A stretch of DNA of 64,000 nucleotides from Tachypleus tridentatus (lineage: Eukaryota; Arthropoda; Merostomata; Xiphosura; Limulidae). Location: the NCBI RefSeq assembly GCF_004210375.1, contig NC_134830.1, forward strand, positions 4,712,001 to 4,776,000, in the 5' to 3' direction. Shown in pieces: positions 4,415-43,369 of the stretch (position 1 is its first letter; each line of letters begins with the position of its first letter). A model generated the notes under the pieces. That model was not told the origin of the DNA. It saw only the letters and a list, made by a program, of their open reading frames with translations, and did no database searches. The position numbers were made by a program, and so were the translations under genes.

Positions 4415-4910
4415 AGCTAAGGGAAAACCGGGTAAAACTACGTGTTGGTAAAACACCCACAGCTAAGGGAAAACCAGGTAAAATTACGTGTTGGTAAAAC
4501 ACCCACAGTTAAGGAAAACCCGGGTAAAATTACGTGTTGGTAAAACACCCACAGCTAAGGAAAACCCGGGTAAAATTACGTGTTGGTAAAACACCCACAG
4601 CTAAGGGAAAACCAGGTAAAATTACGTGTTGGTAAAACACCCACAGTTAAGGAAAACCCGGGTAAAATTATATGTTGGTAAAACACCCACAGCTAAGGGA
4701 AAACCAGGTAAAATTACGTGTTGGTAAAACACCCACAGTTAAGGAAAACACGGGTAAAGTTACGTGTTGGTAAAACACCCACAGTTAAGGAAAACTCGGG
4801 TAAAATTACGTGTTGGTAAAACACCCACAGCTGAGGGAAAACTGGGTAAAATTACGTGTTGGTAAAACACCCACAGCTAAGGGAAAACCAGGTAAAATTA
4901 CGTGTTGGTA
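4415..4910. repeat. About 46-bp minisatellite, 11 copies
   Basis: Units contain ACGTGTTGGTAAAACACCCA followed by CAGCTAAGG or CAGTTAAGG. Two alternating variants (AAACCAGG and AAACCCGGG) give a partly ordered array. Confidence 0.95.
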
Positions 4911-5570: not shown

Positions 5571-7726
5571 ATGACACCATCTTAGTTAAACACTTTCAAC
5601 CTTTACACTATAATAAAACGTAAATAGTGATACCATTATTAATTACCTTTGTTATATCTTGTGTACTGTGTGTTTTACTTTTACTAAATTTGAAGTTTTT
5701 GTTGTTGTTACATGTGATATTATTCTATCTACTTTGGAAAACTTGATTCCTCATGTTAGTGTGTCCTTGGTATCATCTGTGTCAATGGAGTATTGTATGC
5801 TCCTTATCACAAAGGCTCTTGGTTATGACCTAGCTCCTGGGAGTAATCTGACCTTTTTTGAATGCATCTACTGGTCACAATGTAAGTAGTCTGTTGAGGT
5901 CAGTGGGTTCTTGTCTGCAAACTGAGATTTTACTTTTGGTAGACTTTTGATGTGTATTATAGATTGATTTGTTTACATCTTTTGATTTCCTTTGCCAGTT
6001 GCACTTCAAGCTGGTGCTCCCTGAATTATAACTGAGTATTTTGGTGGTGGTATTTCTGTTATGTTCAGATGTACTTGGTTTGTCTTGTTTAGCATTTGGT
6101 TTTCAAGTCCTCTTTGGTTTTTTTGGATTTAACCAGTGTAAATCCTTTGGTGTCATCAGACTGTGGTAATTTTTCAGCATCATTTTCTGTGTCTGTGTTT
6201 GGTTTAGTATTCCTGGTTACATTATTGGTTTTAACACTACCAGTTTATTGACATGTATAGTTTTGGTGTCAGTGATTATATTTTGTTTATCTCCATTTAG
6301 GGATTTATAAATCTTTCTTTTCTTAAGTAACTGTTATTTACTTCTTGATTTGGTACTAATTTAATCTTACCAACTAGGTCTTCTTTTGCTGAGTATAAAA
6401 TAATCTTAATTGGTTTTCATCCTTACAGCTTTGGCCAAATATTATAGACTTTTTCCAGAAGACAAAGTAGGTGCTTTCATTCCTGATGTTAATTGTTTTA
6501 TCTTTGTTGGACATATTGAAAATGTTGGAGAAGCCATTTATTTAATGACAGCAGATGCTCTTCAACTCTGGTTCTCGCATTGTTCACTGAAGTTACTGAT
6601 CAGTTGTATTCTGTTGGTGGGTATTCACTTTCTGCATTTTCTCTGTTTACAAGTCTTTTTAAATATGACCAGAATTGTTTGGGTTTTGTTTTTGTATTTT
6701 GCTGGGGGCAGAAGTTGTCCCATTTTGAACAGTATAACTTCTGTTTGTATAGTATTTCTTATTGTGTTTCTATTGCTTGGCCCCTCTATTCCATCTACTG
6801 TCTTCTCAGCTATCTTCGGTGTTTAATAATAGTTATTAGTTGTGGTATCCATGCATGGTTTGTTGTTTTGTGTTGATGTAGTGATATTGTTTGTTTGAAT
6901 GCACTCTGATTATTTGACAGTACTTGTATATTTCAGATTGGTTTGCAGCTGATTGATAGCTAGTAGATTATATATTAGTTGTTGTTTTTCCTGAGAATTT
7001 CCTTTTTGGTGGGTTATATTTTTATAGGGGGTGAGATTGAAGACACACCAGAGTGGTAAGTGTCAACATTTTTTCCCACATTAAATTTCACTAATTTTTG
7101 GCATGTGTTGTATGAGTCAGCGAGAGATCTAGTGTGACATTGTTTAATAAGAGTTATGGTGGTGTCATCAATTATGTTAATTTTCTTCCATTTGTGTTTG
7201 TTTTATATCTTAAAGTTTCTGTGTTTATTCTTTAGATCTCCTATAAAGATAGAATTTTGATTATGAGAATAGATTTTGTTTTCTTATGAGAACAATAAAA
7301 CGCTGCTACTGTAACATATGTAACATCAGTTGTTATATATTCATTATTGCTGTTAATTGGTATTTCTGTTACAGATGGTTTTGTTTATGTAATAAGGCTG
7401 AGCACTAATCAGGATACATTCCTAGGACATGGAGCTCTAACCAGAACAGGACTAAACAGGGTCATTATAACATTAGGTATACTTTGGATAAGTGAAAATA
7501 CAGTAGACATTGTCTTTTCTTGAGTTTTCTGTCATGAAGTAGTTCTCAGTAGCAGGATATCATTGCAAGGTTTGCTCATAGTCAGAGTCATTATCTATGT
7601 ACTGATCCACGTGTAACATCAGGTAGGAGGGTGGTGGTTCGGCTTAGTTTTCCATATATTCAACATGCATATTTTCAAGTAGGTCTAAGAGGTGTCAGAA
7701 AAGTTACATGAAGCAAAACAGAAGTA
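5571..7726. other. Unidentified, possibly decayed retroelement on the minus strand
   Basis: The plus strand is T-rich, and the minus strand gives short Lys/Asn/Thr-rich readings. The longest clear one runs from about 6411 to 6219 (KPIKIILYSAKEDLVGKIK, then LVPNQEVNNSYLRKEK) and stops at PIM. A neighbouring piece near 6120-6190 reads GFTLVKSKKTKEDLK. They look like remnants of an old protein gene, probably of a transposon, but I cannot name it. Confidence 0.3.
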
Positions 7727-10077
7727 TTGTTCTACATGACTCCCTCAGTGTACACGTACACCAAAACAGATTGGCTCACTTTTAACGCTTCACTAGATTC
7801 ATATCTACCACACTCAATTGAACATGTTAACAACAAAACAGAATTAGACAACTATATTAATCAAGTCACAGAAGCCATACATAAAGCCATTAAAAACACA
7901 ATCCCTAAATCAAAGGAAAAACACTCACATAATCAGTGGACTCTAACACCGGAAATTCATGCACTAATAATCAAATGCAGGCAGTTAAGACGAACACACT
8001 TCATAACACGTGATCTGACCGTCAACACACAGATTAACAGAACAAATGCAAAAATTAAACAACAAATGATAATAGCAAAAGAAACTAATTGGCAAAACTT
8101 TTGTAAAAACTTGGAAAAAAACAAAAACAATCCAAAAGAATTTTGGAAAAAATTCAAGAGTATTTCTTCCAACAAAAACACAAATTACTTGCTTCAACAC
8201 ATCACACATAACAACATAATCACAAGGACGGACTAGGAGAAAGCGGACCTATTAGTTGACTTTAACACACAACACCAACAACATGTCAACAACTTCATAA
8301 ACACAAATCAATCTTTGTTCACACCACAATTCCCTGGCGAGACATTAGAAAGCTACTCAAGTTCAATCAATAGGGAAATTTACCATCACTGAACTCAAAA
8401 TTAACATTAAAAACACTTCCCTCAGACATGACCAAATACTAAACATTATTCTGAAAAAAGGCTCTTCTATTACAACACCTCACAAACATCTAACAACTGG
8501 TTACTACCCTGACACATGGAAAAAAGCCATCATCACCACAATTCCAAAGAAACAGGACAAATCCAGATAATATCCATCCCATCAGTTGCAGGAGAGCTTT
8601 GTGAAATAAATAATATCCTTCTGGAATCTCAAAATGCCTTCAGGAAAAACAGACAAACAATAGATCACCTCACATGACTCACCGAATCAGTCTACAAAGC
8701 TTTTAATAACAACCAGGTAACCATAGGTGTATCTTTAGATGTTAAAAAAGCATTTGACAGCATATGGCACAATGCCATCAAGTACAAATTAACACATCTG
8801 AAAATAAATCCCACTATTATTAAATGGATATCAAACTTCCTAACAGATAGAACAGCACAAGTAAAAGTCAATAAAACTATATCCAAATCTTTCAAAATAA
8901 CTGTAGGAGTGCCCCAAGGATCAGTCCTTTCTCCACTATTGCACATTATTTTTGTCAGCGATATACCTTTCTCCAGTTTAACATACACTCATAATTCACA
9001 ATATGCAGACGACATTGCTATCTGAGTACCTCCAGAAACCCAGTAATGGCCATGTCTCGCGTTCAAGAAACACTACACAATGTCTTGAACTGGAGTAACA
9101 AGTGGAGAGTGGTTTTAAATCCAACTAAAACACAGGCAATCATCTTTTACAGGAAACTAAAAAGACAAAGAAAAACTCTAGAAAAAGTAAAATTCTCACT
9201 TGGAAACACGCCCATTAACATGAACAATTGGAAATATGCCCATTAACATGAACAAACACATCACATTCCTTGGCATCACTTTTGACACAAAACTAACATG
9301 GAAAAAACATGTTAACAACACACACTCATCAATCAAAAAACGCATTTCACATTTAATAACTTTAACCAGCAAACACTCAAACTGTTCACCAAAGACCATT
9401 ATCCAAATATACAAGGCGTACATCCGTCCGTTAATAGAGTATGGATGTCAAGTCACATATAATATGTCAAATAACACACTTCAGAAAATCCAAGTACAAC
9501 AAAACAAAATACTAAGAGCAGCATACAGACTACCATCATACACACCAGTAAACTATATACACCAAATCAGTAACTTACCATCTTTTAGAAACAGACTCAC
9601 AGAAATGTCGTACAAATATTATTTAAAAGCAGATCACAGAAACAAACTAACTGCATCACTATGTAAATTAGCCAGTGCACCAACAAAATATATTTCACCA
9701 TATAACATTTCAGCAATCACAAATCACACAACAAAGTATATAAAGGACAAACCTCATGAATGTAATATGTACTTCTTTTTCAGATCTCGGGCACAGGACA
9801 GGTAAAACTTTTGGCGCCTGTCCTGTAAAAGTGGGTTTTCTTGGGGCACTCCCGTTTCCCACCACATCCAAATCTCAGACATTGGACCTTTAGATCCCAG
9901 CCAAGGCAACATTATTGCCCAGCCCTGAAATGGGTCATATCACATTCATATTTGCTTTGACATCTGCCTTTTGGGCTCTGGCCTAGCTGGCCTCTCCAGT
10001 GCCACCTTTGTCTTGCTCACCAGTATTATGACCAACCTCACTTCTTCACCTTAAAAAAATCAAAATAAAATAAAGGC
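7727..10077 (+). mobile_element. Broken jockey-like non-LTR retrotransposon (LINE)
   Basis: The plus strand carries a 5'-truncated LINE. The pre-RT region reads to a stop at 8236. Reverse transcriptase blocks follow in broken frames: SLDVKKAFDSIWHN (about 8732-8775), GVPQGSVLSPLL (about 8906-8942) and QYADDIAI (about 9000-9022), then a thumb/C-terminal region (9236-9805). A 3' untranslated part ends near 10077 in an A-rich tail. Stops at 8236, around 8390-8530 and after YADDIAI, plus a short duplication near 9215-9250 (AACATGAACAA twice) that shifts the frame, show that it is dead. Clade by motif similarity only. Confidence 0.85.
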
Positions 10078-13862: not shown

Positions 13863-16800
13863 CTGAAATAAAAGGAATGATAGTAGAGACTACCAAAAAG
13901 AAATGATTTGCCCAGTACAGTATCAGCTGTATCTAGTTTTAACACCACTGCTCTACATGTTCAACAACCCTAAAAGCCCAATTTTAGATACATAAAGTAG
14001 CCATGTCTTACATCACAGCAATAGATGGTCGAGGGTATATACATGTACAATTTTTTAAACAATTACCATCTGTAGAAATTTATCTACCCACAAGCCATTA
14101 CTGGACTCAGTATACTTCTGTTACCCATGTATTTTAAATCTCTGATGTGTATGTAAATCATTTTATATTAGACAAGTATTTAGAACTTTCTTTTCGTGTA
14201 TGGTAAACCATAAGTACAATGGTTTACACTTTCATGCAGGACAGTAGAATTCTATCGACTACAGCATCAGACAACATGGTTTATACTTTTCTAAAGCATT
14301 ACAGTAAGGAATAACTTGTTGATTTTGATGAACTTTCCAAAGATATGTTCCTACTTTTGGGAACAAAAGCATTCTGGACTCCAATACATCAAGTAAGTGT
14401 CTATACCAAAGACATCTGAACTCAATACATCAAATGTCTATACCAAAGACGTTCTGAACTCAAGTTATTATAACTTTAATACTGACCTAGAGCTTTCAAA
14501 GGCTTCTGCATATCTTCTTCAGTGAAGACTGTTCGAGGAAAGGTAGTCATCAACGAGAAGGGAAGATTTCCGTCTGTTCTGTTAAGTTCTATATACAGTC
14601 GAACTGCTGCCAATGATTCACTAGCACCAAAACTATTAGTTAGAGTCTGGCCATTTGACAAACGAATCTGTAAGGATGATATACAAACATTAAGGGCAGA
14701 TAAAACAAATTGTTAGGGAAATATTACTTTACCTAATATTAGGCCTCACTGAATTGGTTTGCCATTATTTACCTAATATTAGGCCTCACTGAATTGGTTT
14801 ACCATTATTTACCTAATATTAGGCCTCACTGAATTGGTTTGCCATTATTTACCTAATATTAGGCCTCACTGAATTGGTTTGCCATTATTTACCTAATATT
14901 AGGCCTCACTGAATTGGTTTACCATTAGTAAAATGTAAATAAACTGATATAATCAGGAACACAATAACCAATATATGTATTGAAATATTCTGATTCTTCA
15001 ATGGATATTTTGTATTCAACACTTAACCCTTTCTAATTACAGCAAGTTTCGTACACACAATCTATATAATATTTTATGTGAACTTAGAAAACAACATAAT
15101 TTGGTTGTATGATATTTCATGTGAAGTGTTGTTTTGTTGTTACTAAAAACTACTTTCTTTATCGTATTGTGTGTGCCTGAAATCCTCTAAATATATCCAA
15201 TATAATTATTTTTGAATCAGAGTGTAACTGTCATGTTTTGTTCAAACAACAGCTTACTTGTTTTCTCATCTATTCAATCAAACATTTACAGTTGTACAAA
15301 CAGTTTAACATTTTTCTCTGCAAATTACACTAATTATGTTTACAAGACACCAACTGTTACATGTTTTAGAGTAAAATGAATTATAATTACTATTTTTATT
15401 TATTTTATGAATCCTGTTATGCCAGCTTGCCTTCAACCCAAGAGAGTTACCCATTGTCCCAAATAAGGTTAACTGTATAATGTGCATCTCCTACAATAAC
15501 CATCTAATGGCAGTGAAAGTTGTATGTCAAGTGGCAGTTTAAGCACAGTGTACACTGCTCAACACTATCTTCTTGTTAAAATGGAGATCTGAATAATTAC
15601 ACCTTGAAACTATTGTGACAACTGTTAAAATACCACGATGGAGGTTATATGATGTCAACACTGGTAATAAGACTAAAGATCTAAACAGTTAGATTGTGAT
15701 AATGATGTGTCAACTCTTAAAATAAACACAGGAAATAGGTCAGAAGTATTGTGGAACTTTGTGGCCAACAGTAAGAATCATATAACAATGCTAATCATTT
15801 TATTTTGCACTTTGTGGTTATTACAAGTTCAGTAAAACTGATTAAGAGCATACAGAGTTAGTATAGAGAATACAGTAGATAAAATAAAAACGTTGATGTT
15901 TGTTCCCAAGGTTTTACAAATTACACATATGATACTTAATAAATTTCAAACAAAGTATTTTCAACCCTAAATTGAAAACAATTTTGCACTCAGAGCAAAT
16001 CAACACTGATTCCATATGGTTGTAGAAAAGTTTCTATAAAAATAATGTTTTTTGGTTGTTTTAAATATACACACAAGTATAGAAACTGGTAGTCATTGTA
16101 ATCCAAGGCAGTAGTAAAAGGGTTAAAATCATTAGAGAAATCACATAGTTCAGAGGAGGTAAAATTATTGACTTCAATAGGTTAATGAAGGAAGTACAAG
16201 TGATTTATAATAGCTATGGTAAGATGCCTGTAACACACCTGTAATCTACAACTATCGTATTCCTTTTTCGGTATAACAACCTCCTGAACAGGTTGTGATG
16301 ATGGGGAAGGAGCTGCCGTCACTGGAGGTCCTGTATGAAACTTCTCTTTTCGAGCTTGTTTATCTCTCTCAATTTCTTCTAGCACCCTCTGTCTAGAATT
16401 AGAAATAATACTCTTTGTAAGTTTTTATGTTAATATATAAATGTTAATTCACATGAAAACTTGCAACAAAACATTTGTAGAGGAAGCATTGTGTATTAAT
16501 GTACCAGTTACCCTTCATGCAAGCCTTTCACATGAACCTATTTTTGTCCCTTATGTTACTGATTATTACATGGTATCTTAGCCACAACATCAGAATCTCT
16601 TACATAACTGAAAACGAATTTGAGTTGTGCACATTAGTGGGTCCAGAGTTTTAGTAAAGGGTAGACATAACTTATTACAGATGGGAAGTAAGACCTAAGT
16701 GACAAGAAATTACCAAACAAAAAAAGACTCCAGGAACAATATTTTCTTTGTTAAATAGGGAGAAATCACATTATAAATTTCTGTTTGTTCCAAGTTATTT

Positions 16801-19800
16801 TATAACAATGCATGTTACTAGTCAGTCTGCCATATAAATATGTTTGTTCCAAGTTATTTTATAACAATGCATGTTACTAGTCAGTCTGCCATATAAATAT
16901 GTTTGTTCCAAGTTATTTTATAACAATGCATGTTACTAGTCAGTCTACCATATAAATATGTTTGTTCCAAGTTATTTTATAACAATGCATGTTACTAGTC
17001 AGTCTGCCATATAAATATGTTTGTTCCAAGTTATTTTATAACAATGCATGTCACTAGTCAGTCTACCATATAAATATGTTTGTTCCAAGTTATTTTATAA
17101 CAATGCATGTTACTAGTCAGTCTACCATATAAATATGTTTGTTCCAAGTTATTTTATAACAATGCATGTTACTAGTCAGTCTGCCATATAAATATGTTTG
17201 TTCCAAGTTATTTTATAACAATGCATGTTACTGGTCAGTCTACCATATAAATATGTTTGTTCCAAGTTATTTTATAACAATGCATGTTACTAGTCAGTCT
17301 ACCATATAAATATGTTTGTTCCAAGTTATTTTATAACAATGCATGTTACTGGTCAGTCTACCATATAAATATGTTTGTTCCAAGTTATTTTATAACAATG
17401 CATGTTACTGGTCAGTCTACCATATAAATATGTTTGTTCCAAGTTATTTTATAACAATGCATGTTACTAGTCAGTCTGCCATATAAATATGTTTGTTCCA
17501 AGTTATTTTATAACAATGCATGTTACTAGTCAGTCTACCATATAAATATGTTTGTTCCAAATTATTTTATAACAATGCATGTTACTAGTCAGTCTACCAT
17601 ATAAATATGTTTGTTCCAAGTTATTTTATAACAATGCATGTTACTAGTCAGTCTGCCATATAAATATGTTTGTTCCAAGTTATTTTATAACAATGCATGT
17701 TACTAGTCAGTCTACCATATAAATATGTTTGTTCCAAGTTATTTTATAACAATGCATGTTACTAGTCAGTCTACCATATAAATATGTTTGTTCCAAGTTA
17801 TTTTATAACAATGCATGTTACTAGTCAGTCTACCATATAAATATGTTTGTTCCAAGTTATTTTATAACAATGCATGTTACTAGTCAGTCTGCCATATAAA
17901 TATGTTTGTTCCAAGTTATTTTATAACAATGCATGTTACTAGTCAGTCTACCATATAAATATGTTTGTTCCAAATTATTTTATAACAATGCATGTTACTA
18001 GTCAGTCTACCATATAAATATGTTTGTTCCAAAGTTATTTTATAACAATGCATGTTACTAGTCAGTCTACCATATAAATATGTTTGTTCCAAGTTATTTT
18101 ATAACAATGCATGTTACTAGTCAGTCTACCATATAAATATGTTTGTTCCAAGTTATTTTATAACAATGCATGTTACTAGTCAGTCTACCATATAAATATG
18201 TTTGTTCCAAGTTATTTTATAACAATGCATGTTACTGGTCAGTCTACCATATAAATATTAAATATCATATTTGTATTTCTCTTGTTTCTACCATAATTAC
18301 CTTTGTATACATTTCAATGAAATGGAAAAAGAAGTTATGATTGTAGATGAAGTGGATAAAACCTTTCAGAAAATATTGTCATATCCATCTAAAAATGTCA
18401 TATATGTCCATCTAAAAATGTCATATATATCCATCTAAAAATGTCATATATGTCCATCTAAAAATGTCATATATGTCCATCTAAAAATGTCATATATGTC
18501 CATCTAAAAATGTCATATATATCCATCTAAAAATGTCATATATATCCATCTAAAAATGTCATATATGTCCATCTAAAAATGTCATATATGTCCATCTAAA
18601 AATGTCATATATATCCATCTAAAAAATGTCATATATGTCCATCTAAAATGTCATATATATCCATCTAAAAATGTCATATATATCCATCTAAAAATGTCAT
18701 ATATGTCCATCTAAAAATGTCATATATGTCCATCTAAAAATGTCATATATGTCCATCTAAAAATGTCATATATATCCATCTAAAAATGTCATATATATCC
18801 ATCTAAAAATGTCTCAGATGGACATCACACTAAGTCGTGCTATACTTTTATACAATTGCTTGTATATCTCTACTTGTCTCTAATATGAGAAACTTTCAGA
18901 GTGTGTGTGCAAAACAAGATAAACAAAATACACCTGGCCATCTTCTCTTCCAACTTTTCTCTTCGTTTCTGCTCAGCCAGCCTTTTTATTTCTTCCTCTT
19001 CCATCCTGTGAAATCACAAATCTTAACTGAACAAAGAACCAAAATTATTATCCAACATTAGTGCATTAGCTATAAATATTTTTCCTAGAAAAATACACTT
19101 TATGGGCCTAATAAGTTAAAAAACTGGAACACTTAAAAATCACAGACTATACAAATTACTACTTCTGAAGTCATTACAATCAGTTTCCAACAAAGGGATA
19201 TTCAAAAAAAGTCACTGTAATTTGTTTGTTTGTAATTAAGCACAAAACTACACAATGGCTATCAGTTCTCTGCTCATCACTGATATCAAAACTCGGTTCC
19301 TAATGATGTCAATCTGCAGTTACACTAATGTGCCACCAGAGGACATGTAAGTGAAATGGGTATTACTGTCCATGACAGATGTACAAACTGTTTGGACTAA
19401 TCCTTCCATACCATTACAGTATGTGAATTTCAACACTACGGTAATGTTTCACTGATCCAGGTTGACAACTGAATGAACCAAGGTGAGAATAGTTATCATT
19501 CTTTAGAAATTCCATTTACTTGTACCAAGAGTATGCCATAAAGATTCAGCTTGAATGAACATACTGATCAAACATAGGGTCTGAAATACCTCAAGCATGA
19601 GAAAAATGACCATGTACCAAATGTCAGAAAAGGGTCCAGATCCATAGTAACAAGAAGACTGGATGAGAATGGATAATTTGGTCATGTAGCAGTTAAAAAA
19701 ACATTTATGTCAATCACCAGATATTATTATGAGACTGAAATTTACTTAAAAGTACAAAAACTGAACTACTGAAAATTGGAAAAGAGTGTTATGGATAAAC

Positions 19801-22800
19801 AAGTCCAATATTGAAATGTTTGGTTCAAAGCATAGGTTACACATCTGGCTAAAAGAAAGGTGAAAAATACCTCAATGCATAGCACTTGCCATAAAGTGAG
19901 GTGGAAGTAGTGTGATGGTTGGGGGGTGTTTTCCTGCCAAGGTGACAGGATATATTTGCCAAATAGATGGAATTAATGGACCAGCACAAGCATCATCAGA
20001 TACTGATCCATCATTCTATATCCAATGGTTTTCATAATATCGTAATTAATTCTACTACATAATGACCCCAGACACTCATCCAACCTATGCAGAGATTACT
20101 TTGTTATGAAAGAAACTGCTGGAGTCATTCAAATTATGCAATGACCCCCACAGAACCCCAATCTCTTTAAGGGAATATATGAGAGAAATTTAGAGTAAAA
20201 TCCCAAAGGACACATTGACTAAATATGTTAAACAATGCATGAAAAACAGTTTGCAGTTATTAAAGCAAAATATTAATATTTAATAATATTTAATAATAAA
20301 GCAAAATATTAATTGTTTACTGAACTCAAACTCTTCCACTGAGTTTCTATTAAATATAAAGATTAATATACCTGAGGTTTCACCTTCCATTGTTCTTTTC
20401 ATGGAGCCTGAAATCTAATTTTTGACTTTATCCTAATACAGTACTGTACAACAAAATATTAATTAAAATCAAATAATCCAGCTTTCACTCTCACATCAGC
20501 TACACATTGTGTTTGCAAATAATCTCTCTCAATGAAGGGAATATTACAAATAAATAATAAGTAATTCATTATAATCCATAACTCTAATTTTCTTCATCAT
20601 AAACCTCAATATTGGTTTGTAATATGAATTGAACAGGAATTTGTTGAAAACTAATAGAAATGTCAGACAGAAACCACCTTAAAAAGCAGACTTATCCTTG
20701 AAACAACATCATAATCTTCTTTTCAATGGCTAAGATAACCTAACCACTGATAAACAAAATTAGTGATTTCACAATATCAAACAAAATCAGAATTTGCCTA
20801 CAAAACAATCAGCTGGACATATGACACCACAACTTAGATATACTGTATGTAATGTTGGGTGTGTTCATAACTTGTTTAAAAGTTGATTTACGTTATTATA
20901 AGTACATAACAGACAAGATGTTGTTCTCAGTGGCTGCTTTTGTATTCAATCATGTTAAATATACACTCACACAATGCCACTTGGCCCAGTAAATAATTAC
21001 TTTAAAAGACATAGAAAGTTTTATTTAAAATAATGTTTTAGACATTTGTTTCACTCGAAAAAGATGCTTTTCTACTGATAAAATTTAGCGCGTTTGTTTT
21101 GAATTTCGCACAAAGCTACATGAGGACTATCTGCTAATTTAGCAGTGTGAGACTAGAGGGAAGGCAGCTAGTCACCACCACCCACTGCCAACTCTTGGGC
21201 TACTCTTTTACCAACAAACAGTGGGACTGACCATCATATTATAATGCCCCCATGGCTGAGAGGGCAAGCACATATGGTGTGATGGCTATTCAAATCCTTC
21301 ACCTTCAGATTACAAGTCGAATGCCTTAACCCACCCGGCCATGCTGGGTCTAGTGTGTTTAATTAGAAGGGAGGTGTGTCTTACTTTAGACATATCTTTA
21401 AATCTACAAATAAGGATTGCAAAGAAACAGAGCTGGAGATCTAATGGTGACAGTTTACTCAAACTACAAATCCCTATTATGACTCCATTATAAAATTATT
21501 ACAAGTTGTAGTATAAGATCATACAGGAATTTTGTAATAAACTGAATATTGTAATAAACTTAATTCAACCTCCTTTATTTTGTTGTGCTACAAAACTTAA
21601 GTCCTACGTGTGTGCGTTAGTTGGAAACCAGATCTTGAGCACTGTCTGAAAACAGTCACATGAAAAGTTCCCAAGTTGCATGTTATTACTGACTATTGTT
21701 AATCACTGCTCAAGCATGCTGTTTCTACATGAATTTTCATAAGTAATTTCAGCAAGTACCTGGATTGTGATGGCCGTTGGACGGTGCTGATGCAATGTAA
21801 TTTCTGCCCAGTGCTATGAATGTCAAAGTGAAGAAATTCAACCAAGCACTGGAAAACAGCAGGAATAACTATGACTCTCTCAAGGTAGCCAAATGCCTCA
21901 TCATCTAATTAGTGATGCACACTAACTAGTTACCTAAACTTGTTGGTATGAAGGCCCACAAATAAGTGAAGTGTCTAGCTATAAGGGTTAATGTATATCC
22001 TACAAAAGAGGCCCTCAGCAGAGGTAACCTCAGTAAGAACAAGGATTCTGCAAAGTGCTGGGGTTGTACAGCCATGAGGGAGACCCTATGTCATCTTAGC
22101 GGTCAATGTCCGAAGTTAAAGTCAATGAGAATATGCTGTCACACTAAGATCTGTTACCATTTGGTAAAAGATGCCTCCTATAAAGGGTGGAAGGCTCTTC
22201 AAGAATCCACCTTTGAGATAGGTAGTGGTGAACGCCGAAGACCTGATCTAATCTTCCATAACGATGAAGAAGCCGCAGTTGTTGTACGTACGGTCCAATA
22301 CAAACTCATGTACAACTCGTTACAAGAAGCATACGAGTCAAAGGTTTCTTGATATCAAGATCTAGCACCTCAAGTATAAGAACTCAGGGGTGCTACTTCC
22401 GTTGTTTTTCATGGTCTACCAATAGGTGCCCATGGTGCCTGGTTGCCTGTAAACATGGAAGTTCTAGCAGACCTGGATATCAATTCCAAATATTTTGAAC
22501 AGTTCTTGTGTAGGCATACAATCCTCTGCACACTTGACATCCTGTGGAAAGCGATTAATGAAAAAAATCTCGCTTGGTAGGAATTGTCGGAATTCCATCA
22601 AAGTATTTTTCCCTGTATCATGTCATTCGTGTTTGACATCCAGCATCTGTCGGTATCGTCAACCGTGACATAAAATATCGATAGCCAAATGCCTTTTCAT
22701 CTAATTAGTGATGCACATGAATGGATTAGCTAGATTCCCACTGTTCCTATCTAGCAAAACCACAGCCAAGGGAATTGGCTTTGCTTTTTAGCCATTTCCT

Positions 22801-25800
22801 ACTCAAAAAACAGTGGCAATTCTTTCTACTGTATATTATCTTAGCTGAAATTGTGTGTATTTAGTATTTATTACCATTGTAAATAGCACTATTTTGTATA
22901 TTTGAAGGTAGCAGTTGTAAATGTTGTCTATAATTGGAGACTTGTGCCAAATGTGTTGCTGTTATCCATTATGTATGCATTATTAAATTGAATCAAAGTA
23001 CAAATATTATATTTTCAAGCCTAAAACTGGGGACTTTAAAAAAACAACAAAAAAAACAAGGCTAGAAATAGTGTCTACATATTTTCTCAAGTTAAATCAG
23101 CTACCATTTTGAGTTATAAGCACCAAATGTATAGCATAAACGGAAAAACAACTTTTATTACTGACTTGTGACGTATTTCCAAATGGCATCACCATCATCT
23201 TTGTCAGACGTTTTACTGTAGTTTCTGCCCACAATTGATATGTAATAAACATACTTTATTTTAAATAAATACTCTTTTGAGTATTTCAAACAAAATGAAA
23301 AGAATACCAAAAGAAATTATAAAGTACATCCCCCAACTCGTGGTTTGTTACTAAGTGATGTAAACTTCACATTAGAATCCTTTGTTCACGTGGGAACTTC
23401 ATGTAATCAATATTTAAATAAACATTTGTCAACTCAACATTGATATAGATTATAACCTTTTCTATTGCATCATTCTTAGCCACGGGTTATAACCTTTTCT
23501 ATCGCATCATTCTTAGCCACGGGTTATAACCTTTTATATTGCATCATTCTTAGCCACTGGCTATAACCTTTTATATTGCATCATTCTTAGCCACTGGCTA
23601 TAACCTTTTATATTGCATCATTCTTAGCCACTGGCTATAACCTTTTATATTGCATCATTCTTAGCCACTGGCTATAACCTTTTATATCGCATCATTCTTA
23701 GCCATGGGTTATAACCTTTTCTATCGCATCATTCTTAGCCATGGGTTATAACTTTTTCTATCGCATCATTCTTAGCCACCGGCTCTAGCTGTTTTTAATG
23801 TTAAGCTTCATTAGTAACTATCAAGATCACAAGATACACCAAATAAGGAAGGGCCTTAAATATAAAACCACTGATAGACAAGGAAAAATCATGTAAGAAC
23901 AGTAGATGTGTGTCACTGTATTTCCAAGGGAAGAGAGTTCAGGATGATCAGAAAAATGCAAAAACTTAATAAATGGTTCACACATAAGACTTCAGAACTG
24001 CCATTTCTGGCTCAATAAACGGTTCACACACAAGACTTCACAACTGCCATTTCTGGCTCAATAAACGGTTCACACACACAAGACTTCACAACTGCCATTT
24101 CTGGCTCAATAAACGGTTCACACACACAAGACTTCACAACTGCCATTTCTGGCTCAATAAACGGTTCACACACACAAGACTTCACAACTGCCATTTCTGG
24201 CTCAATAAACGGTTCACACACACAAGACTTCACAACTGCCATTTCTGGCTCAATAAACGGTTCACACACAAAAGAATTCACAACTGCCATTTCTGGCTCA
24301 ATAAACGGTTCACACACAAGACTTCACAACTGCCATTTCTGGCTCAATAAACGGTTCACACACAAGACTTCACAACTGCCATTTCTGGCTCAATAAACGG
24401 TTCACACACAAGACTTCACAACTGCCATTTCTGGCTCAATAAACGGTTCACACACAAGACTTCACAACTGCCATTTCTGGCTCAATAAACGGTTCACACA
24501 CAAAAGACTTCACAACTGCCATTTCTGGCTCAATAAACGGTTCACACACACAAGACTTCACAACTGCCATTTCTGGCTCAAAAAATGGTTCACACACAAG
24601 ACTTCAGAACTGCCATTTCTGATCACTTTGATAAAAAAAAATATTAAAATAATTAGAATTATTTTTTTAGTTAAATTTTGACAGTTAATACTTGACTAAC
24701 TTCTGTTTTGCAAGAGTTAGTTCTTGGCCTGCTTTCCTTCTCTGCTTTTCCTTTTCAATAGCACTTTTCTTTTCAAGTTCGTTCCTTTCTAACCTTCTCT
24801 GTTTAATTCTCTCTTCTAATCTGGAAGTCAAAAAGTTTTACACTGAAAATTAAATACACTCACAAGAAAACTTAATAAAACGTCTCTTGATAAAAATGTA
24901 AAGAACTTAAATGGATAAAGCTCCAAGTCTCGAGTTAAGATAAAACAGTAGTGAAATTCTTATTTCTTTAATGGCAGTTTCTCTCTCTTACATTTTCACA
25001 ACAATAAATATATACTTTTTACATATGGTACCACAACACCTTATCATAAGCGTAAGGTAAACAAATCCACTAATACATTATAAACCATCATGCAACTGGG
25101 TATTTTGATAAACTTTCTTTAGTATTGCTTCTCGGATTTTTCTCAAGAGAAACAAATTCCTCACTGAATTTCAGAAAGTGAAACATCCATGTAACACAGA
25201 CATATCTACTTTGTGTGTCATAACAATATAACACAATCAAGTAAGTTTTAACCTGAAGTAAGAACAAACTGAACCATTGTAATTTGATTCATTTGTGTAT
25301 GTAGTGAAACCACGTACACATTCAATGACAAAACTTACATTACAGTTGTCTTCTCTGTGATTTTTTCCATTGTTTTACATTTTTGAATCATTTTGATCAG
25401 AAAATATAATAATTTGTTTTAACTAATAACTGTTTGAATGTCTTTGTACCTATGATTTTTCCACAATTGTTAATCATCAACATCCCATAATATCCAAAGA
25501 ATCTTTCACAAAAAGCAAATGACATCATAACACAGCTAACCATATTTCTTTACATGTCCAAATGAACTAATTACTGTTTGGAATTTCCCAGATATGACTA
25601 CAATCTATCATTACATAATCATTATAATACGTTCCGAAGAGCAGGCTCGTATGAAACATAAAACTGATTACGTGCCCTGAAAGCAAAACTAATTATTTAT
25701 CAACAACATGTCTCTGCCAGGTATTAATTTTGGTGGACAAAACTCAAAAACTTTCCACTTTAAGCACCATCATTAATGCCCAGACATAACATGTTAGTAA

Positions 25801-28800: not shown

Positions 28801-31800
28801 TGAATATTCTCCAGCTTATGTTAATATACACAACATTATAAAGCTGAAATAAAGAGTCATACAAAAACACTGGAACAAGAAGGGAGTGACTGTGAGATGC
28901 TTGGTTTCTTTTATACCTGTTAAACATGCTGTGTTATTTTGTTTCACTGCCTCAAAGTTTGTTATTACAAAGTTCTGTATTGTGGACAAACATTTAATGC
29001 CATATACAAGATTCAACAACTGCCAATTTTGTGGATTTTCAACATAGCTGCCTTTTCTTTATTCTGGCATGCTGCAGGACTAACATGTGCATGACGATAG
29101 TTGGACAGTTTGGTTCTTTGTGATCGACGGGGGCTGCACTTTTGTCTGTTTTTATGCCTGATAACGAAGAACTGGTATTTTTGAAATAATTTGAATTATT
29201 GTAAGAAATATAAGAAACACTGTTTGTTCTGGTTTAAATCACATTTTGCAAAAACCTTTTAAATATGCAGGCAGTATGCAAGTCTGCATTTTGATTAGAA
29301 AAATATAATTGAGAAATGCAGACAGCTGAATAAATGTGAGGTCTATTTTACACATGTGCTTGGCTGTTGTAATGGAAATTAACTTGAACATGTGCATAAT
29401 AATAATAATGGTTCGTCAGTGCTTAAAAAGTTGCAGGCCTATGAACTTTTCAGAAGCACAAACAGATTCTTATAACAATAGAAATAGACTTGTTATGATG
29501 AATATTATTCTGAAAAGTCCAAAACGGATGCATGGAGAGATACAAGAAACTAAGAACACTTCAGTTCTTAGAACCAAGTATAAAACTTGTCTCTCCATTG
29601 TTCTATACAAATTATTCAACAAGCTGAGCCCTCGAATACAGTTCTCCATTTCTTGAGAAATGCTTAATAGAAGTTATTATTTTGAAAAACAAAACACACT
29701 TTCTTAACTGCTCTCGTTTGTCTCCTTCTGTTAAAGGTTTGATTTCTTCTGTTGATTCTGAGAAACTCTGGTGACCAGACTTAACTGCATGAAACTCCAC
29801 TTCATCTTCTGACTTGAACTTCTTACCACACCTGAAACCACAATATTATAACTGTTAATCAGAATAAGTATACATTAGTAACATCATTCTAGAAGTTTCT
29901 TGTTGTATGGAACATCACTACGTTTATTTCATTTCTAGCTATGTTTGAGTCATTTATTAAAATGAGTAGGAAACCATCTTCTTACAAATGTAACAAAGAC
30001 CACCACAAACATCGTAAAAAGTGGTACTTGAGCATAGAGTCCATAAAAATAATCGTTCATAGAAATTTGTTTAAAATGCTACCAGACTCGCAAGACAACC
30101 TTCATTAAAGACAACACCACCAGACTCGCAAGACAACCTTCATTAAAGACAACACCACCAGACTCGCAAGACAACCTTCATTAAAGACAATACCACCAGA
30201 CTCGTAAGACAACCTTCATTAAAGACAACACCACCAGACTCGTAAGACAACCTTCATTAAAGACAACACCACCAGACTCGCATGAGACAACCTTCATTAA
30301 AGACAACACCGCCAGTTCAGCAGAGACAACCTTCATTAAAGACAACACTGCCAGACTGCAGAGACAACCTTCATTAAAGACAACACTGCCAGACTAAACT
30401 AGACAACCTTCATTAAAGACAACACCACCAGACTCAAGCTAGACAACCTTCATTAAAGGCGACACCACCAGACTGCATGAGACAACCTTCATTAAAGACA
30501 ACACCACCAGACTGCAAGACAACCTTCATTAAAGACAACACCACCAGACTCATAAGACAACCTTCATTAAAGACAACACCACCAGACTCGCAAGACAACC
30601 TTCATTAAAGACAACACCACCAGACTCGCAATACAACCTTCATTAAAGACAACACTGCCAGACTAGCAAGACAACCTTCATTAAAGACAACACCAACAGA
30701 CTCGCAAGACAACCTTCATTAAAGACAACACCAACAGACTCGCAAGACAACCTTCATTAAAGACAACACCACCAGACTCGCAAGACAACCTTCATTAAAA
30801 ACACCAACAGACTCACTAGACTTGATTGATTGATTGATTTAGTGTTTTATGGCACAAAGCAGCGAGGCTATCTGCACCAGACATTCGGTAAAAATATAAA
30901 AAAAATAAATAAAAGAAAATAAATAAATGTAGTAATAGACATAAATGGAAATGAAGGTAAAACAAAAAAGTATAAAACCAATGTTGACACCTGGTCTACA
31001 ATGTTAAGATAGAAGGCAGAGTATAAGAAGTTGTAAGGTATTTACTCTAGCAAAAAGGTAATGATCATAACCCGCCAGGAAGACTAACAGGTAAGTTCAA
31101 GAACCACCGTCAGTCACCTGAAGTTGGCCTTTCCAGTCCTGGTTCCGGGTTATGTGTCATAGCAACCAGTATCAAAATGTAAAATAATAGAAGTTTTAAA
31201 AGACATATAAGCAAAATCGTAATAATGAGTAGCCAAATGTCCAGTAAAAAGATAAAAGTCAAGTAAATGGAGTAAAATTTGTAAAAGTAATTGAAGATAA
31301 AAGCAAAACGGCAATTAAAACAGAAATTGGCGTAAAAACCAATGTTGACATCCAGTCAACAAAGTTGTAAAGGACTACCTGTAGCAGAATGGTAATGATC
31401 ATAACCCACCAGGAAGACTAACAGGTAAGTATAAAAACCACCGTCAGTCACCTGAAGTTGGTCTTTCCAGTCCTGGTTCCGGGTTATGAGTCAATATGGC
31501 CAGTACTAAAAAGTAAAGTAGTAAAAGTGTGAAATGATATGCAGCAAAAGTATAATAACAACTCGCCAGGATGACTAACAAGTAGTTCAAACGGATAGCT
31601 CAAACAGTAGCGTTAGTCACCTGAAGTTGGCCTTTCCAGTCCTGGTGTCGAGTTATTTAATGTTATGGCCATTGTCCAATGTCAAATTGAATGAGAGAGA
31701 TTAAAATTGTAAAAAAGGAACCACAATTAAAAAGGTGTAATAAATAAATATGCAACACTTAAATGAGATTAAAAAGATTAATGGCCATTAAAAAATTAAA

Positions 31801-34800
31801 AACATTATCAAGGTGGACAGAGTCACCAGCACCAATAACTCTGTCCAATGTTACAGATTGACCCTGGGAAAAAATATGTTTAAAATATTGCCATCGTTGA
31901 GAATTGTAATGAAGGCAAGAAAGTAAAACGTGGCTGATAGTGATTTGAGTGTTACACAAACTACACATTGGTGCATCAGTTCCAGATAAAAGAAAATGAT
32001 GAGTTAAAAACTGTGACCAATCGTAGCCTAGTGAGAACAACTTCCTCCTTCGAACTTTACGGAAGCTAGATGGCCAAAGTCCAATTTTGGGTTTGATTTG
32101 AAAAAGTTTGTTGTCGCGTTGCTCACTCCAAGTGGACTGCCAGCTGGCACGGAGCCGAGCCTTGAAGACAACACCATAGTCCATATACGAAATAGGCATA
32201 GGAGTAATGGTGTTGAAGCAGACATAATTAGCTGCCATGTCTGCAAGCTCGTTTCCGCAAATACCAACATGGCCTGGTATCCAGAAAAACTGGATTGAAG
32301 TAGCTGCTAATAAGAAATGGGCCAGTCGGTTTGAATATCAGCGAGAATAGGATGTGAGCTAGCGTGTAGCGATTCCAAGGCAAGTATAGAACTAAGCGAA
32401 TCAGTATAAATAGTGCAGTTGGAGTACTGCTCAGCTGCAATATGATCCAGGGCAAGAAATATGGCATACAGTTCAGCAGTGAACACAGAAGCTGTAGAAG
32501 GGATTCTAGGCGCAACTACTGACCCATAGCAAACCATAGCAGAGCCCACTGAATTACCTGATTTGGAACAATCTGTATAAATGGGAACTGAATGATTGTT
32601 TGAAAGATATTCATTGAATAAAAGGCGATACTTCCAATCTGGAGTATCTGCCTTTTTAGGTGACTGAAAGAAAGGTCACATTTGGGGGCTGTAATAAGCC
32701 ATGGTGGGATGGGCTGACCTGTGGAATCTGCAATGTTATCAAGGACAGACCCAATTCATCCAATTGCCCCTGGATCACGAAGGCCAAGCGGACAATGACA
32801 GATCGTCTGTTCTGAAAAGTACTGCCCACCGAGGAAGGAAAACACATTTCCAGGTGGGATGCTTTGGTAAGGAATGAAGTTTCAAAGTATATTGTAAAGA
32901 TAGTTGCAAGCGGCGAAGGTGTAGAGAAGGTTCATGAGATTCAATGTATATACTTTGAACTGGAGAGTGCAGGAAAGCCCCAGTGCAGAGTCAAGTCCTT
33001 GGTGATGAATGGGGTCCAGCATCTTTAAGGCGAGGTTCTGGCAGAGCCATAGACCATTTATCCATAATCGAGTTTCGATCTAATAAGAGCACGATATACC
33101 TTTAACACTGAACAGTGATCTGCCCCCCAACTGGTAGAAGAGAGAACACGGAGGATGTTTAGTGCTCTTGTGCATTTGACCCGAAGCTGCTTTAAGTGTG
33201 GTTGAGAAAGGCTTCTCTGATAGATGTTTCAAGGCAATTAGGTGGTCTGTGGTGGAGTGCTGTCGACAGAACCCACACTGGGTGGGCGAGAGGAGGTTGT
33301 TTGATTCAAGGAACCAAACAAGACGAGCATTAACCATCCTTTCTAATGTCTTACAGAGACAACTCGTCAAAGCAATTTGACGGTAGTTTGAAGGAATCTT
33401 GGGATCTTTCCCTGGCTTAGAAAGGTAAAATAATAGCCTGGCACCAGGCATCAGGAAAAACATTCTCCTGCCAGATCGGTTGAAAACAATCAGAAGGACA
33501 TCAAGAGAAGCAGGAGATAGATGGTGCAGCATGTCATAATGAATATCATCAGGTCCAACAGACGTACTGGCAGACCGATGAAGGGCCATTTTTAGTTCCA
33601 TCAGGGTAAAGGGACAATGATAGTCAAAGAAACAGTCAGTTCGAAGGAAAGAGGTGATCGCTCTGCCCGAGTCTTGATGGCCAGGAAGGTGGAGGAACAA
33701 GCAGAAGTGCTAGATACCCGGCAAAAGCTTTCACCTAGAGTGTTAGCGATGTTCCAAACATCAGTCACCTCCTGACCATCAGAGAGTAAGATCGAGAGGG
33801 GGACAGAATTGTTGTGCCCATTAACCTTTGAATCCTGTCCCATATGATCTTGGAACTGGTGGTAGAAGATATGCTGGTTGTGAACTTAATCCAAGATTCC
33901 TTCTGCCTTTGGCGTCTTACCCACCTAGCATGTGCACGGGCCCGTTGGAAAGCAACCTGGTTTGAAAGTGTGGGATATCTGCATAAAAGTATCCCAGGCC
34001 CGCTTTTGAGCCTTCTGTGCTAAGAGGCAAGTAGGATTCCACCACGGACGAGGATATCATGGAAAACGTGTCGAGGTTTTAGGAATACACTGAGCAGCTG
34101 CATGTGTAATACAGTCAGTTACCGCTGCTTCACAGTCGTCTATTGATGGCTGATTTACGATGGCAGGATCAAGTTCTGTGAGAGCAGTGAAAGTGGACCA
34201 ATCTGCCTGATCCAGCTTCCACGGGGCACCGGGTAGGGTGGCATCGACAACGGCCAGTCTCTCTCAAAAGGATCGGAAAATGATCACTGCCTAGTGGATT
34301 ACTGTCAACCCTCCATGAAAAATGGGAGAATAATGAAGGGGAGCAAACTGAGAGATCAATAGTGGTAAAGGACTGACTAGGTGCATGAAAGTAAGTGGAA
34401 GAACCAGTATTGAAAAGAGAAAGATTGTGATCAGAGAGCATCTGCTCTACAGATGCGCTCCTCCCATCAATAATAGCACTTCCCCAGAGGGATGATGTCC
34501 ATTAAAATCCCTAGGATTAGAAATGGAGATGGCAACTGTTCAACGAGCATCAAGATCTGATTCATCATATGTCTCTCCAGGGGACAGGTACAGAAAACAA
34601 ACAGTGATGGTATGAGCCAAGGAAACACGGATGGCTACAGCCTCCAAAGGTGTGTTGAGTGACAAAGACAGGGTGGGCGCGTGTTGATCAACCAACAGTG
34701 CCACCCTCCATGTACTCAACCATCACACAACCTGTCATTTCTGTACAGAGAAAACTGCGAATGGAGACAGTATCAGCAGTTTTGAGAAATGTTTCTTGTA

Positions 34801-37800
34801 AAGAAAGACAAACAGGATGGTAGGAAGCAATCAGCGTTTTGATATCATCAGATTAGAGCGTAAACCTCGACAGTTCCATTGTATCAAGGTGGCCATTTTA
34901 AGAAGCGGGTAGGTGAAGTGGCTGGAGAACCCTTGGTTTATGACCCGCGTCTTTTTTCTTTACTGTCTTTAGTGGGAGGAGGTCTATCAACCTCCATGGA
35001 TCCTGCTCTGGGTCGGGTGGGCAGGTTTTGTTATGTGGAAGGGGAATCCAGTGACTGAGGGGCTTGAGCGAATAATTGTTTTGTCTCTTGTGGTGGGAGA
35101 AAAGATGCATCAGAAGAAATGCCTGTATTTGAAACTGAAGGGCGTGGATCTTGAGGTTTGTTGGAAGGTATGGGAGGAACAGAGATGGGTGTGGAAGTCG
35201 ATTCATCAACCTTTTTAACCATGGAGATCAAAAGGCTTTTCATTTGTTTTGAAAACAATTCTCTTGGAGGCACAGAGAGATCTGTCTGCACTCCCACTGT
35301 AGTTGTGGAATGAAGTGCAGCAGCATATGTCGAGATGGAGTTGTGGACAGCAATTTCCAAGCCTCAGGATAACTAATATTATGTGTCGTTTTCAAACGCT
35401 GCACCTCTTTTTCCTCCAACCATTTTGGGCAAGAATGAAAGTAAGAGGGGTGAGAACCATTGCAGTTTACGCAATGTGGGTTCATGTCACAGTCATAGGC
35501 ATCATGGTCCTTGCCTCCTAGCGAGCACATGTCAGGGAACCCGACAAGATGTCTTTGAGTGGCGAATCTCTGACATTGGAAGCGTCGAAGAGGGTTTGGA
35601 ATGTATGGCGAACCTTGCAAGTGAGATAACCTGCCTTGATGGTGGCAGGTGCGTGGTGAAGTAAATGTTAAAGCGAGGGTATTTGTTGGCAGTGTAACTC
35701 CATCTTTGCAGTGGAGATGCGCCTCACTGCAGAAACTCCTGAGTGGAGAGACCAGCGAGAATCTCTGACTGGGGAGCGATCTTCAAATCCCTTTCAACAA
35801 TAACTCCTCGTGAAGAATTCAAGGTAGCATGGGGTGTAACCTCAATAGGTATATCCCCAATTGCCTTTGAATTCAAGAGGAGTTCACTGTGTTGGGATGT
35901 GGATGTTTCAAGCAATATGTCACCAGATCGAAGTTTCTTTACTGACTTTGGAGAGCCAGCAAGTCCCTCTAGTCCCTTTTGAATAAAAAGGGGACATTTG
36001 CCCTAAGGTTTTCGAAGAGAATGTAATATAAGAAAATGAGTGCGTGTGTTACTGATGTTGAAGATTGCTGTTCTGAGTATTCAAGGCGTGGTAAACACCC
36101 ATTGACTGTTTTTTACAATTTTATTTAAATTTTTTGGAGGATCCATAGGAAGAAGAAAAATTTGGTACCCACTGACCCCACCCACCATGGAGCCCTAAAG
36201 GGGCACTACAAAGTCATGCAAGGACAGGCAGCAATGCCAGGGTTTAAGTGAGCACTATACCCAAACACCAACATCAGGCACAATGTCCACAACACCGTTG
36301 AGAACTTCCAACACTGGTACTTGGTTGACTCTAGCCCAAGTGGACCAGCCGATTGAGGGGGGGCCACCCAAAGGCCACCCGTCACAGGACTTGAGGCCAA
36401 AGTGGTGTGTTAGGGTTGGACCCCTCAACCACCAGGATCCTCTCCTCCCCTTCACGGGTGCATGCGCGACAAACAGTGGATGGATGTTTAGATCCCAGAG
36501 GGTAATCAGATAGAACAGAACCTTCCTGGGAGGTCCCTCACTCACGTGCAGGAATCCACACAGGGGACTCACTAGACAACACCACCAGATACACTAGGCA
36601 ACCTTCATTAAAACAACACCACCAGATACACTAGGCAGCCTTCATTAAAAGCGACACCAGACTCACTGGGCAGCCTTCATTAAAAGCGACACCAGGTCAC
36701 TGGGCAGCCTTCATTAAAAGCGACACCAGAGTCACTGGGCAGCCTTCATTAAAAAGCGACACCAGGTCACTGGGCAGCCTTCATTAAAAGCGACACCAGG
36801 TCACTGGGCAGCCTTCATTAAAAGCGACACCAGGTCACTGGGCAACCTTCATTAAAAGCGACACCAGGTCACTGGGCAGCCTTCATTAAAAGCGACACCA
36901 GGTCACTGGGCAACCTTCATTAAAAGCGACACCAGGTCACTGGGCAGCCTTCATTAAAAGCGACACCAGACTCACTAGACAACCTTCATTAAAACAACAC
37001 CACTAGACAGCCTTCATTAAAAACAACACCAGACTCACTAGGCAACCTTCATTAAAAACAACACCAGACTCACTAGGCAACCTTCATTAAAAACAACACC
37101 AGACTCACAAGACAACTATACAGCCTTCACTAGTATTGTTCATAAATTAGGCATTACACAAATATAAACATTCACAGAATTTGAACAGTATTCCACCCCC
37201 ATCATCAATAGAAGCCTGGTGCCATTTTTAATAAATTATTATTACACTGTTTAGTGTATATGAACAGTGGATAACATTTATTAAATTTGGATATTTGCAT
37301 GCTAGCTGTCACTAATCTCAAACTGATAAAGTAAATAATCACAAACACAACAACAACAACTCTTTGTAACTCTAATCAAATAGTAGAATATAACTATCAA
37401 TCTTATATCACACCCATAGCCCCAAAGTATAAACAAAACTTTGCTGCAACAAGACACAGACCCCCAATATCTATCATGCCAAACATTGGACTCTGTGTAT
37501 AGCGGGTTGTGCAAAGAAAAAAAGAATGTAATTCATTGTGGTAATAATATTTAACATTCATTTTCAAACAGAATAAATAGTGATGGAAAATATGGATATT
37601 ATACAATATAAGTGACCAGTAGAGTACTAAACAAAGACAAATAAAACTACCAAAATAAAATGTCCAAGTTTTTGAAGCATTTTAAAGAGAGCACCCATCA
37701 ACAGTGTGAAGGTTTCTCAATAACAGTTTTAAAGTTATCAGAACAACTTTATAAATGCTGTTTTAAATAAACTCACTCATCACACTGAAGGGATTTTGCC

Positions 37801-42460: not shown

Positions 42461-43369
42461 CTAAAGGAGAAAGAATTAGAACGTTATGTAAGTAATGTTT
42501 CATAGATATGTGATTTACACACACAAGCAATTATCTTAAATCACTTACGTGAATAGACAAATTATAATAAAAATACCATCAACCATACCTAGGTGATAAA
42601 ATATATTACAAAATCTTGTAAAATTTTACATAATAAAATTGTTAAAAATATCATATTTACTGGTGAAATAAGTAATTGGTTGATAAAAAACTGATTAAGT
42701 TGGAGGAAGAAACCCAGGTGAGTAGATAACATCCCAAATCCTTCCAATTGTAACTACCCACAGGCAAGTTTTCAGCATTGTAGGAACCCAAGTGAAGCAT
42801 GTAACAATATTATATTTTCAGTACTTTAAAATATTACAATGAACAAACAGAAGTAAAAAAACTCTCCATACAAAATCGGTGTTTTGCAATGTACAGAGTA
42901 CCACCCATTCAATCACCTAATATTCTATTTTAAAAAACACTGTCTCTTGAAAGGTGACTAATGAAAAAAAATTATCTATAAACATACTGTACCTGAATTC
43001 AGTTAACTGTACATTAAATACATATCAGTAATTAGTTTGTAGCTGTACTACCAACAGAGTGTGTATTTATGATTAGAAGTAATTACACAGTGACCTCGGT
43101 GTACCAGGTGTCGCTAAGTTCTCCTTTACCTTGCCTATCTTTGGTATTAATACCTTGAAATTATAATTCAATTTAACAGACATTATGACACTTAATGTGA
43201 ACTCAACAGATAGCTCGATGTGGCTTTGCTGTGAAAACACACACACACATGACAAAAGTTAAAATACAATTCAACTTCGATTAAAGTCTATAGCATTACA
43301 AAGTTTGTATAACTTCTCTTTTGGACCCAACCGATCGCAGAATCATATAAAATTACCAGTTTAATTTCC
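42461..43369. other. Intron upstream of the UBA exon; no first exon seen
   Basis: I looked on the minus strand for a start codon followed by an MGF-type UBA segment and a donor in phase 2, and found none. The N gap follows. Confidence 0.6.

Follow-up and report, generated by a model that had tools for sequence, protein, structure and literature searches.

How does an element that is tied to one site in the 28S rRNA gene come to lie in an intron of an ordinary protein-coding gene? R2 is a textbook element in its strict choice of target, and tools for inserting genes into rDNA are built on it. In a 64,000-nucleotide stretch of the Tachypleus tridentatus genome (contig NC_134830.1, positions 4,712,001 to 4,776,000; hereafter the window), a 28S–R2–28S block occupies positions 21764-22781, antisense within an intron of a UBX-domain gene. 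The first-pass annotation took this block for the dated fossil of a single escape, in which a piece of rDNA already occupied by R2 had moved into the gene and decayed. Our analysis suggests that the remnant is most likely explained in another way, as a consequence of the many scattered copies in this genome of the 28S stretch that R2 recognises.

An R2 remnant between two pieces of 28S rRNA

The features of the block and of its host gene are collected in Table 1, where 28S positions are counted, as throughout the text, from the R2 bottom-strand nick.

Table 1. Features of the 28S–R2–28S block and of the host gene, in window coordinates.
Feature	Position	Strand	Basis
28S fragment, upstream, -122..+36 relative to the R2 bottom-strand nick	21764..21921	+	Rfam, local alignment, own-28S consensus
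Target-site duplication, copy 1, 28S +1..+36	21886..21921	+	
R2 element, 5'-truncated, judged dead: C-terminal coding part and 3' UTR	21922..22681	+	Protein matches, genomic copies
R2 CCHC zinc knuckle and restriction-like endonuclease region	21966..22352	+	Solved R2 proteins
R2 coding region, last piece, in the frame of 21966-22352	22380..22577	+	9nl2_A 1049-1106, E 0.008 (weak)
R2 3' UTR, ending in AAAATATCGA exactly at the canonical nick	22581..22681	+	Junction comparison
28S fragment, downstream, +1..+107, with a 7-nt deletion	22682..22781	+	Local alignment, own-28S consensus
Target-site duplication, copy 2	22682..22717	+	
UBX domain exon, identifying the host gene	14479..14712	-	PF00789, E 1.7e-18
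Stretch with the UBX-gene exon 5' of the insert-bearing intron	24688..24837	-	RLEERIKQRRLERNELEKK..., AG/GT borders
Stretch with the UBX-gene exon 3' of the insert-bearing intron	18873..19013	-	MEEEEIKRLAEQKRREKLEEK..., AG/GT borders

The upstream 28S piece is recognised by Rfam (RF02543, 144 bits, E 7.5e-35, window 21755-21932), and the downstream piece gives a weak Rfam signal by itself (21.5 bits, under the family cut-off). In local alignments to a typed 28S sequence the two pieces score 196 and 139, against at most 25 and 29 in 300 shuffles, and the match is thus beyond chance on both flanks, as had been proposed. The viral and prokaryote collections yielded no eukaryotic 28S. Compared with a consensus of the genome's own 28S fragments, the upstream piece carries 14 differences in 158 nt, nine of them at CpG, and the downstream piece nine in 100 nt, eight at CpG. 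The flanks retain 2 CpG, as against 15 in the typed 28S, and the CpG observed/expected ratio of the R2 body is 0.57; an argument built on CpG was dropped, since it would need the starting CpG content of R2. All 28S sequence around the window R2 is confined to -122..+107 and the host site is the intron of a single gene, not an rDNA array. Its position outside rDNA therefore lowers the case for an rDNA R2 insertion, not that for descent from R2.

The R2 remnant is 760 nt long, and its homology to other genomic copies starts at 21925, corresponding to position 3397 of a full-length yardstick of about 4.1 kb (4166 nt) taken from locus L017. The R2-type C-terminus, with its CCHC zinc knuckle (identified by eye) and restriction-like endonuclease, is present, and the first coding piece matches solved R2 proteins (9nl2, E 7.9e-20; R2Tg 9dou, 6.4e-18; 8gh6, which we take to be R2Bm, 1.3e-6). 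Pfam returned 0 matches for the pieces at 21966-22352 and 22380-22577, and a protein search with the R2 piece gave no match. An intact reverse transcriptase, the N-terminal fingers and a single open reading frame are absent through the 5' truncation and stops: TAA at 21963, a premature TGA at 22350 that closes the first coding piece, and TAA at 22377. The Asp of the relatives' LVVDVTV motif aligns with a Val in the window copy, which on our reading of the alignment would replace one of the catalytic Asp residues; in R2Bm, Asp996 and Asp1009 are named as catalytic (PMC10499050). Judged from its sequence the copy is dead, and it has decayed, as noted at first pass.

Its 3' end joins the 28S at the canonical nick TAGCC, and many other genomic R2 copies terminate in GAAATATCGA followed by TAGCC. 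The arrangement first described, with 28S on both sides of an R2 C-terminus and 3' UTR in the same sense and the correct order, is upheld by the Rfam hit, the alignments and the R2 protein matches. The roughly 160 nt assigned to upstream 28S are indeed 28S, but they do not end at the nick: they run 36 nt past the R2 site, and the same 36 nt are repeated after R2, the two copies being identical at 34 of 36 positions. Because the canonical nick is kept exactly and 36 nt of 28S are duplicated, R2 itself entered a 28S target by its own chemistry, cutting the top strand 36 nt further downstream. A 22-nt duplication from the downstream 28S has been described for an earwig R2 (PMC3774820). No flanking duplication was found around the whole window unit.

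The description of the block as a dated fossil is not supported. When the share of decay before versus after R2 insertion was estimated from the two 36-nt copies, using the typed 28S, which differs from the genome's own 28S at 2 sites, the log-likelihood was near flat from 0 to 0.8 and only 1.0 was clearly worse. Dating R2 relative to the 28S piece by the shared decay of these copies was accordingly rejected as uninformative.

The host gene, on the minus strand, combines a UBX domain with two charged coiled exons, a linker and a zinc-finger-like exon, bounded by AG/GT; the exons that flank the block's intron lie near 24.8 kb and 19.0 kb. The placement in an intron of a UBX-domain gene is thus confirmed by PF00789 and the exon borders, with the block antisense to the gene; the gene is presumably UBXN1. 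The same intron contains minisatellites near the insert, at 23450-23779 and 23968-24621 (37-bp and 48-bp units). Elsewhere in the window there are decayed non-LTR retrotransposon coding regions at 7712-9805 and 31759-35782, each with a reverse transcriptase (PF00078), and a gap of 500 N at about 43366-43878.

A second copy of the block, at 99% identity, lies 236 kb away at C6:4970234-4971292, within a duplication of at least 4 kb. The duplicated sequence (C6:4968734-4972792, at least 4 kb around the block at 99%) is either a segmental duplication or an unmerged haplotype. Misassembly of the block is unlikely because both copies sit within a chromosome-scale contig. An artefact of assembly or chance, for which we found no supporting evidence, is altogether improbable in view of the alignment scores far above the shuffles, the Rfam E value, the second copy and the like arrangement at other loci.

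R2 copies elsewhere in the genome

A search of the whole genome (2.167 Gb, 205 contigs) with the block returned at least 65 matches, 44 of them long: the window, its 99% copy and 42 at 73-83% identity, so that there are at least 42 further long R2 matches, part of them in duplicated clusters. From this list we fetched 20 R2 loci, with 4 kb each. By BLAST, a 28S piece follows R2 in 19 of the 20, starting at the nick or a few nucleotides away and ending at +49..+124; the twentieth (L026) has just about 10 letters of 28S after R2. Upstream 28S was detected by BLAST in 10 of the 20, with a weak match in L022 in addition, and none was found in the fetched 4 kb of the other nine (L011, L014, L016, L018-L021, L023 and L024). 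The 28S flanking R2 is 82-97% identical to 28S, and by eye the outer flanks of the dispersed copies appear unrelated to one another. A truncated R2 directly adjoins upstream 28S in the window, L009, L012 and L022, and is separated from it by about 60 nt in L013; in L014 and L016 the truncated R2 begins in non-28S sequence and 28S is present only downstream. Exact R2 3' ends occur 16 times in the genome, nine of them followed by exact TAGCCAAATG, and four of the other seven by a mutated or very short form of it (L018, L021, L026 and the duplicate of L026).

A unique escape of R2-occupied rDNA, as first proposed, is not supported in view of these copies, which number in the dozens and, where read, are joined to short 28S.

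An R2-holding piece of rDNA might still have been moved to the intron as DNA, by recombination or break repair. The variable outer ends of the 28S would fit broken DNA, and the block by itself does not separate such a movement from other explanations. Random pieces of rDNA would be longer and would come from the whole unit, however, and we disfavour the movement of DNA for this reason: the 28S after R2 is short in 19 of the 20 fetched loci, and a query from the 5' end of 28S finds 10 places in the genome, five of them on contig C19. We therefore consider this explanation quite improbable.

Two further observations concern the arrangement of R2 copies. At L018, near 4735-4830 in the R2 orientation, a second truncated R2 begins in the 28S letters after the first, with about 14 nt of 28S repeated, in what appears to be a nested insertion. 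Clusters of R2/28S matches at 34.01-34.53 Mb of C12 suggest tandem amplification of such pieces.

Uninterrupted 28S fragments

A typed 271-nt 28S query around the R2 site gave 1162 first-look candidates, which may contain halves of R2-occupied pieces; the best 40 were scored, and 39 of these cross the nick uninterrupted. The 5'-end query mentioned above, whose 10 places are likewise candidates, was shorter (123 nt). Exact copies of a 24-mer that spans the intact nick number 113 in the genome, as against 0 for its reversed control, and there are 86 occurrences of a word at about -65..-42, the window and other R2-occupied loci among them. The extent of the empty sites was measured in the first 51 of the 113, in list order; 11 of these also belong to the best-scored, length-picked set and the other 40 were read for this purpose. 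The 5' end falls at -13..-27 in 37 of the 51 and the 3' end at +104..+136 in 39, the downstream border of the family being taken from the fragments read. Identity to 28S is at least 95% in 38 of the 51. The short fragments have a median identity of 98%; 14 sites start at -78 or further, seven of these at 97-100% and seven at 86-92% identity. Some empty fragments have the extent of the window fragment (L048, -119..+117; L057, -137..+117; L060, -136..+105).

More than 100 short, uninterrupted 28S fragments thus span an intact R2 site, some over the same extent as in the window, and an insertion of R2 in situ into such a fragment would require no escape event.

Only at -162 and -155, where coverage is thin, does the fragment consensus depart from the typed 28S, and its variant columns are mostly CpG. 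Diagnostic substitutions, of the kind left by a SINE with a master copy, were not found in its well-covered part, and for this reason the fragments seem to derive repeatedly from 28S itself rather than from a SINE-like master. By eye, no poly(A) was seen in the 3' flanks of the empty fragments, and no R2 3' UTR in those read. Clear flanking duplications are present at L053 (18 bp), L080 (11), L090 (38), L103 (about 20) and L105 (19); that of L061 is imperfect, the repeat at L034 is 28S sequence itself, and the other fragments among 74 unique ones showed none beyond chance or borderline ones. Three 28S fragments (L035, L055 and L063) seemingly lie, by eye, inside copies of a tRNA-like SINE. At C13:112849731-112849994 a 28S word is present four times at 80-bp spacing, which suggests tandem amplification.

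Order of events: fragment and R2

Directly established are the arrangement of R2 between two 28S pieces, its 3' junction at the canonical nick, its truncation and the duplicated 36 nt, together with the abundance of empty fragments and the presence of R2 elsewhere in a like setting; that the fragment was present in the intron before R2 is what we infer from them. That a 28S mini-fragment came first and was hit there by R2 is, in our judgement, the probable order, and it is the simplest because more than 100 intact, empty 28S targets are dispersed in the genome. A short dispersed fragment of 28S rRNA would have inserted into the intron of the UBX gene; R2 would then have recognised the 28S sequence within it and made its bottom-strand nick at AAGG/TAGCC. 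With this nick as primer, R2 RNA would have been reverse transcribed until an early stop gave the 5' truncation, and a cut of the top strand about 36 nt downstream would have duplicated 36 nt of 28S. Such a copy would have been dead on arrival and would then have decayed. A truncated R2 adjoining upstream 28S, as in the window, L009, L012 and L022, is what would be expected if R2 landed in 28S. Some insertions of R2Tg, the zebra finch R2, in human cells map to pseudo-28S sequences (PMC12222951).

The 5' ends of the fragments also differ. All 12 measurable occupied fragments reach -27 or beyond, compared with 15 of the 51 empty ones (Fisher p 6.5e-6); the occupied 5' ends include L015, at -198, and L022, whose match is weak (score 15). 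For R2Bm, a motif at -34..-22 is described as required (PMC10499050). This contrast may be due in part to age, since R2-flanking 28S is 82-97% identical to 28S and the short empty fragments have the higher median given above, an objection tempered by the finding that seven of the 14 long empty fragments are also at about 97% or more. Adding the 11 length-picked sites raised the empty fragments that reach -27 or beyond from 7 of 40 to 15 of 51, which weakens the contrast and the age objection alike. Several findings count against the fragment having come first: the outer 3' ends of the 28S differ (empty median +118, occupied +94.5, p 0.0002), with the same tendency when long empty fragments alone are compared with occupied ones (p 0.054), nine of the 20 R2 loci lack upstream 28S, and the truncated R2 of L014 and L016 starts in non-28S sequence.

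The main rival, which we consider unlikely though more plausible than a movement of DNA, is that a 28S–R2–28S co-transcript was reverse transcribed into the intron in one event, the 28S ends coming from the RNA. In Drosophila, R1 copies that lie outside rDNA have upstream 28S, and in some cases downstream 28S too, that came in with the element (PMC2718515), and in most species studied the R2 RNA cleaves itself at a point 9-36 nt within the upstream 28S (PMC3774820). The downstream-only 28S of L014 and L016 also favours a co-transcript, as does a flanking duplication of about 23 bp around the whole unit at L027, which fits either order of events. The window unit, however, has no such duplication, and empty fragments of the same extent are already present in the genome. 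Moreover, its R2 is truncated and yet has 122 nt of upstream 28S together with the 36-nt duplication; the template would therefore have to be an already truncated R2 in rDNA that was read through, with reverse transcription stopping again just upstream. Prior insertion of the fragment followed by R2 remains the reading we prefer.

Spread of the 28S fragments

How the fragments themselves were dispersed is a separate matter. Our guess is that part of the 28S rRNA, lacking a poly(A) tail, was reverse transcribed and that the fragments spread in this way. Hairpins (stem of at least 7, loop of 3-14) lie within 40 nt of the junction in 12 of 74 fragments on the 5' side and 17 of 74 on the 3' side, as against 56 of 1442 controls (p 6e-5 and 2e-8, respectively; the junctions are those of L029-L110 and the control windows come from these loci too). 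The 34 score-ranked fragments give a strong signal (p 0.001 on each side), and the 40 sampled later, taken alone, do not reach significance (p 0.14 and 0.19). Requiring a stem of 8 removes the significance on the 5' side (p 0.06). For hairpins that begin at the junction itself, p 0.001 is attained on the 3' side alone, with stem 6 (0.03 on the 5' side with stem 7), and those that span the joined empty site show no significant excess. The duplicated target of L105 is a palindrome and that of L053 lies at the tip of one.

Since the R2 nuclease cuts branched DNA (PMC6895275), a spread of the fragments driven by R2 is thinkable but no more. Specifically, the R2 reverse transcriptase or a partner could copy the 28S around the nick into new hairpin-rich sites and so seed spare targets, a proposal that we regard as doubtful. 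If true, R2 would itself build its own escape route from rDNA and could later use the targets it had seeded.

Relation to known systems and significance

The window copy shares with R2 of the 28S site its C-terminal protein sequence, the AAGG/TAGCC 3' junction, 5' truncation and duplication of downstream 28S. It differs in the 36-nt length of its duplication and in its location, a fragment of 28S about 230 nt long that is not part of rDNA; the other copies examined in this genome likewise adjoin short pieces of 28S. There are separate precedents for R elements outside rDNA, for 28S pseudogenes and for SINEs derived from 28S. Copies of R2Bm and R1Bm have been reported outside 28S, with limited 28S similarity at the R2Bm site (PMC10499050, citing Xiong et al., 1988), and in Drosophila both R1 and R2 occur outside rDNA, the R1 sites having 4-9 bp of identity (PMC2718515). 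These cases resemble ours in that R elements lie outside rDNA and R1 may carry 28S along, whereas the copies described here are bordered by genuine 28S fragments about 50-200 nt long. The empty fragments are like tailless retropseudogenes, short RNA-derived copies without poly(A) and with preferred end points, of which ten 28S-derived human cases are given in PMC5322556; here, in contrast, one 28S region has 113 exact core copies. Like SINE28 (PMC8010984), they are dispersed short repeats made from 28S, but SINE28 is said there to derive from the 28S 3' end, whereas the fragments described here come from the R2-site region and have a consensus without diagnostic change. In the literature accessible to us, which took in few subscription papers, we found no description of R2 copies in a dispersed 28S-fragment family centred on the R2 site.

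The dispersal of R2's own target region is the interesting part of these observations, and the region-specific spread of 28S needs an explanation of its own. The fragments may also serve as a natural experiment on the part of the target that R2 needs, as the occupied fragments measured reach the upstream motif and most of the empty ones do not. A scattered and mostly empty R2 target suggests a way for a site-specific element to move out of its niche with its specificity unchanged.
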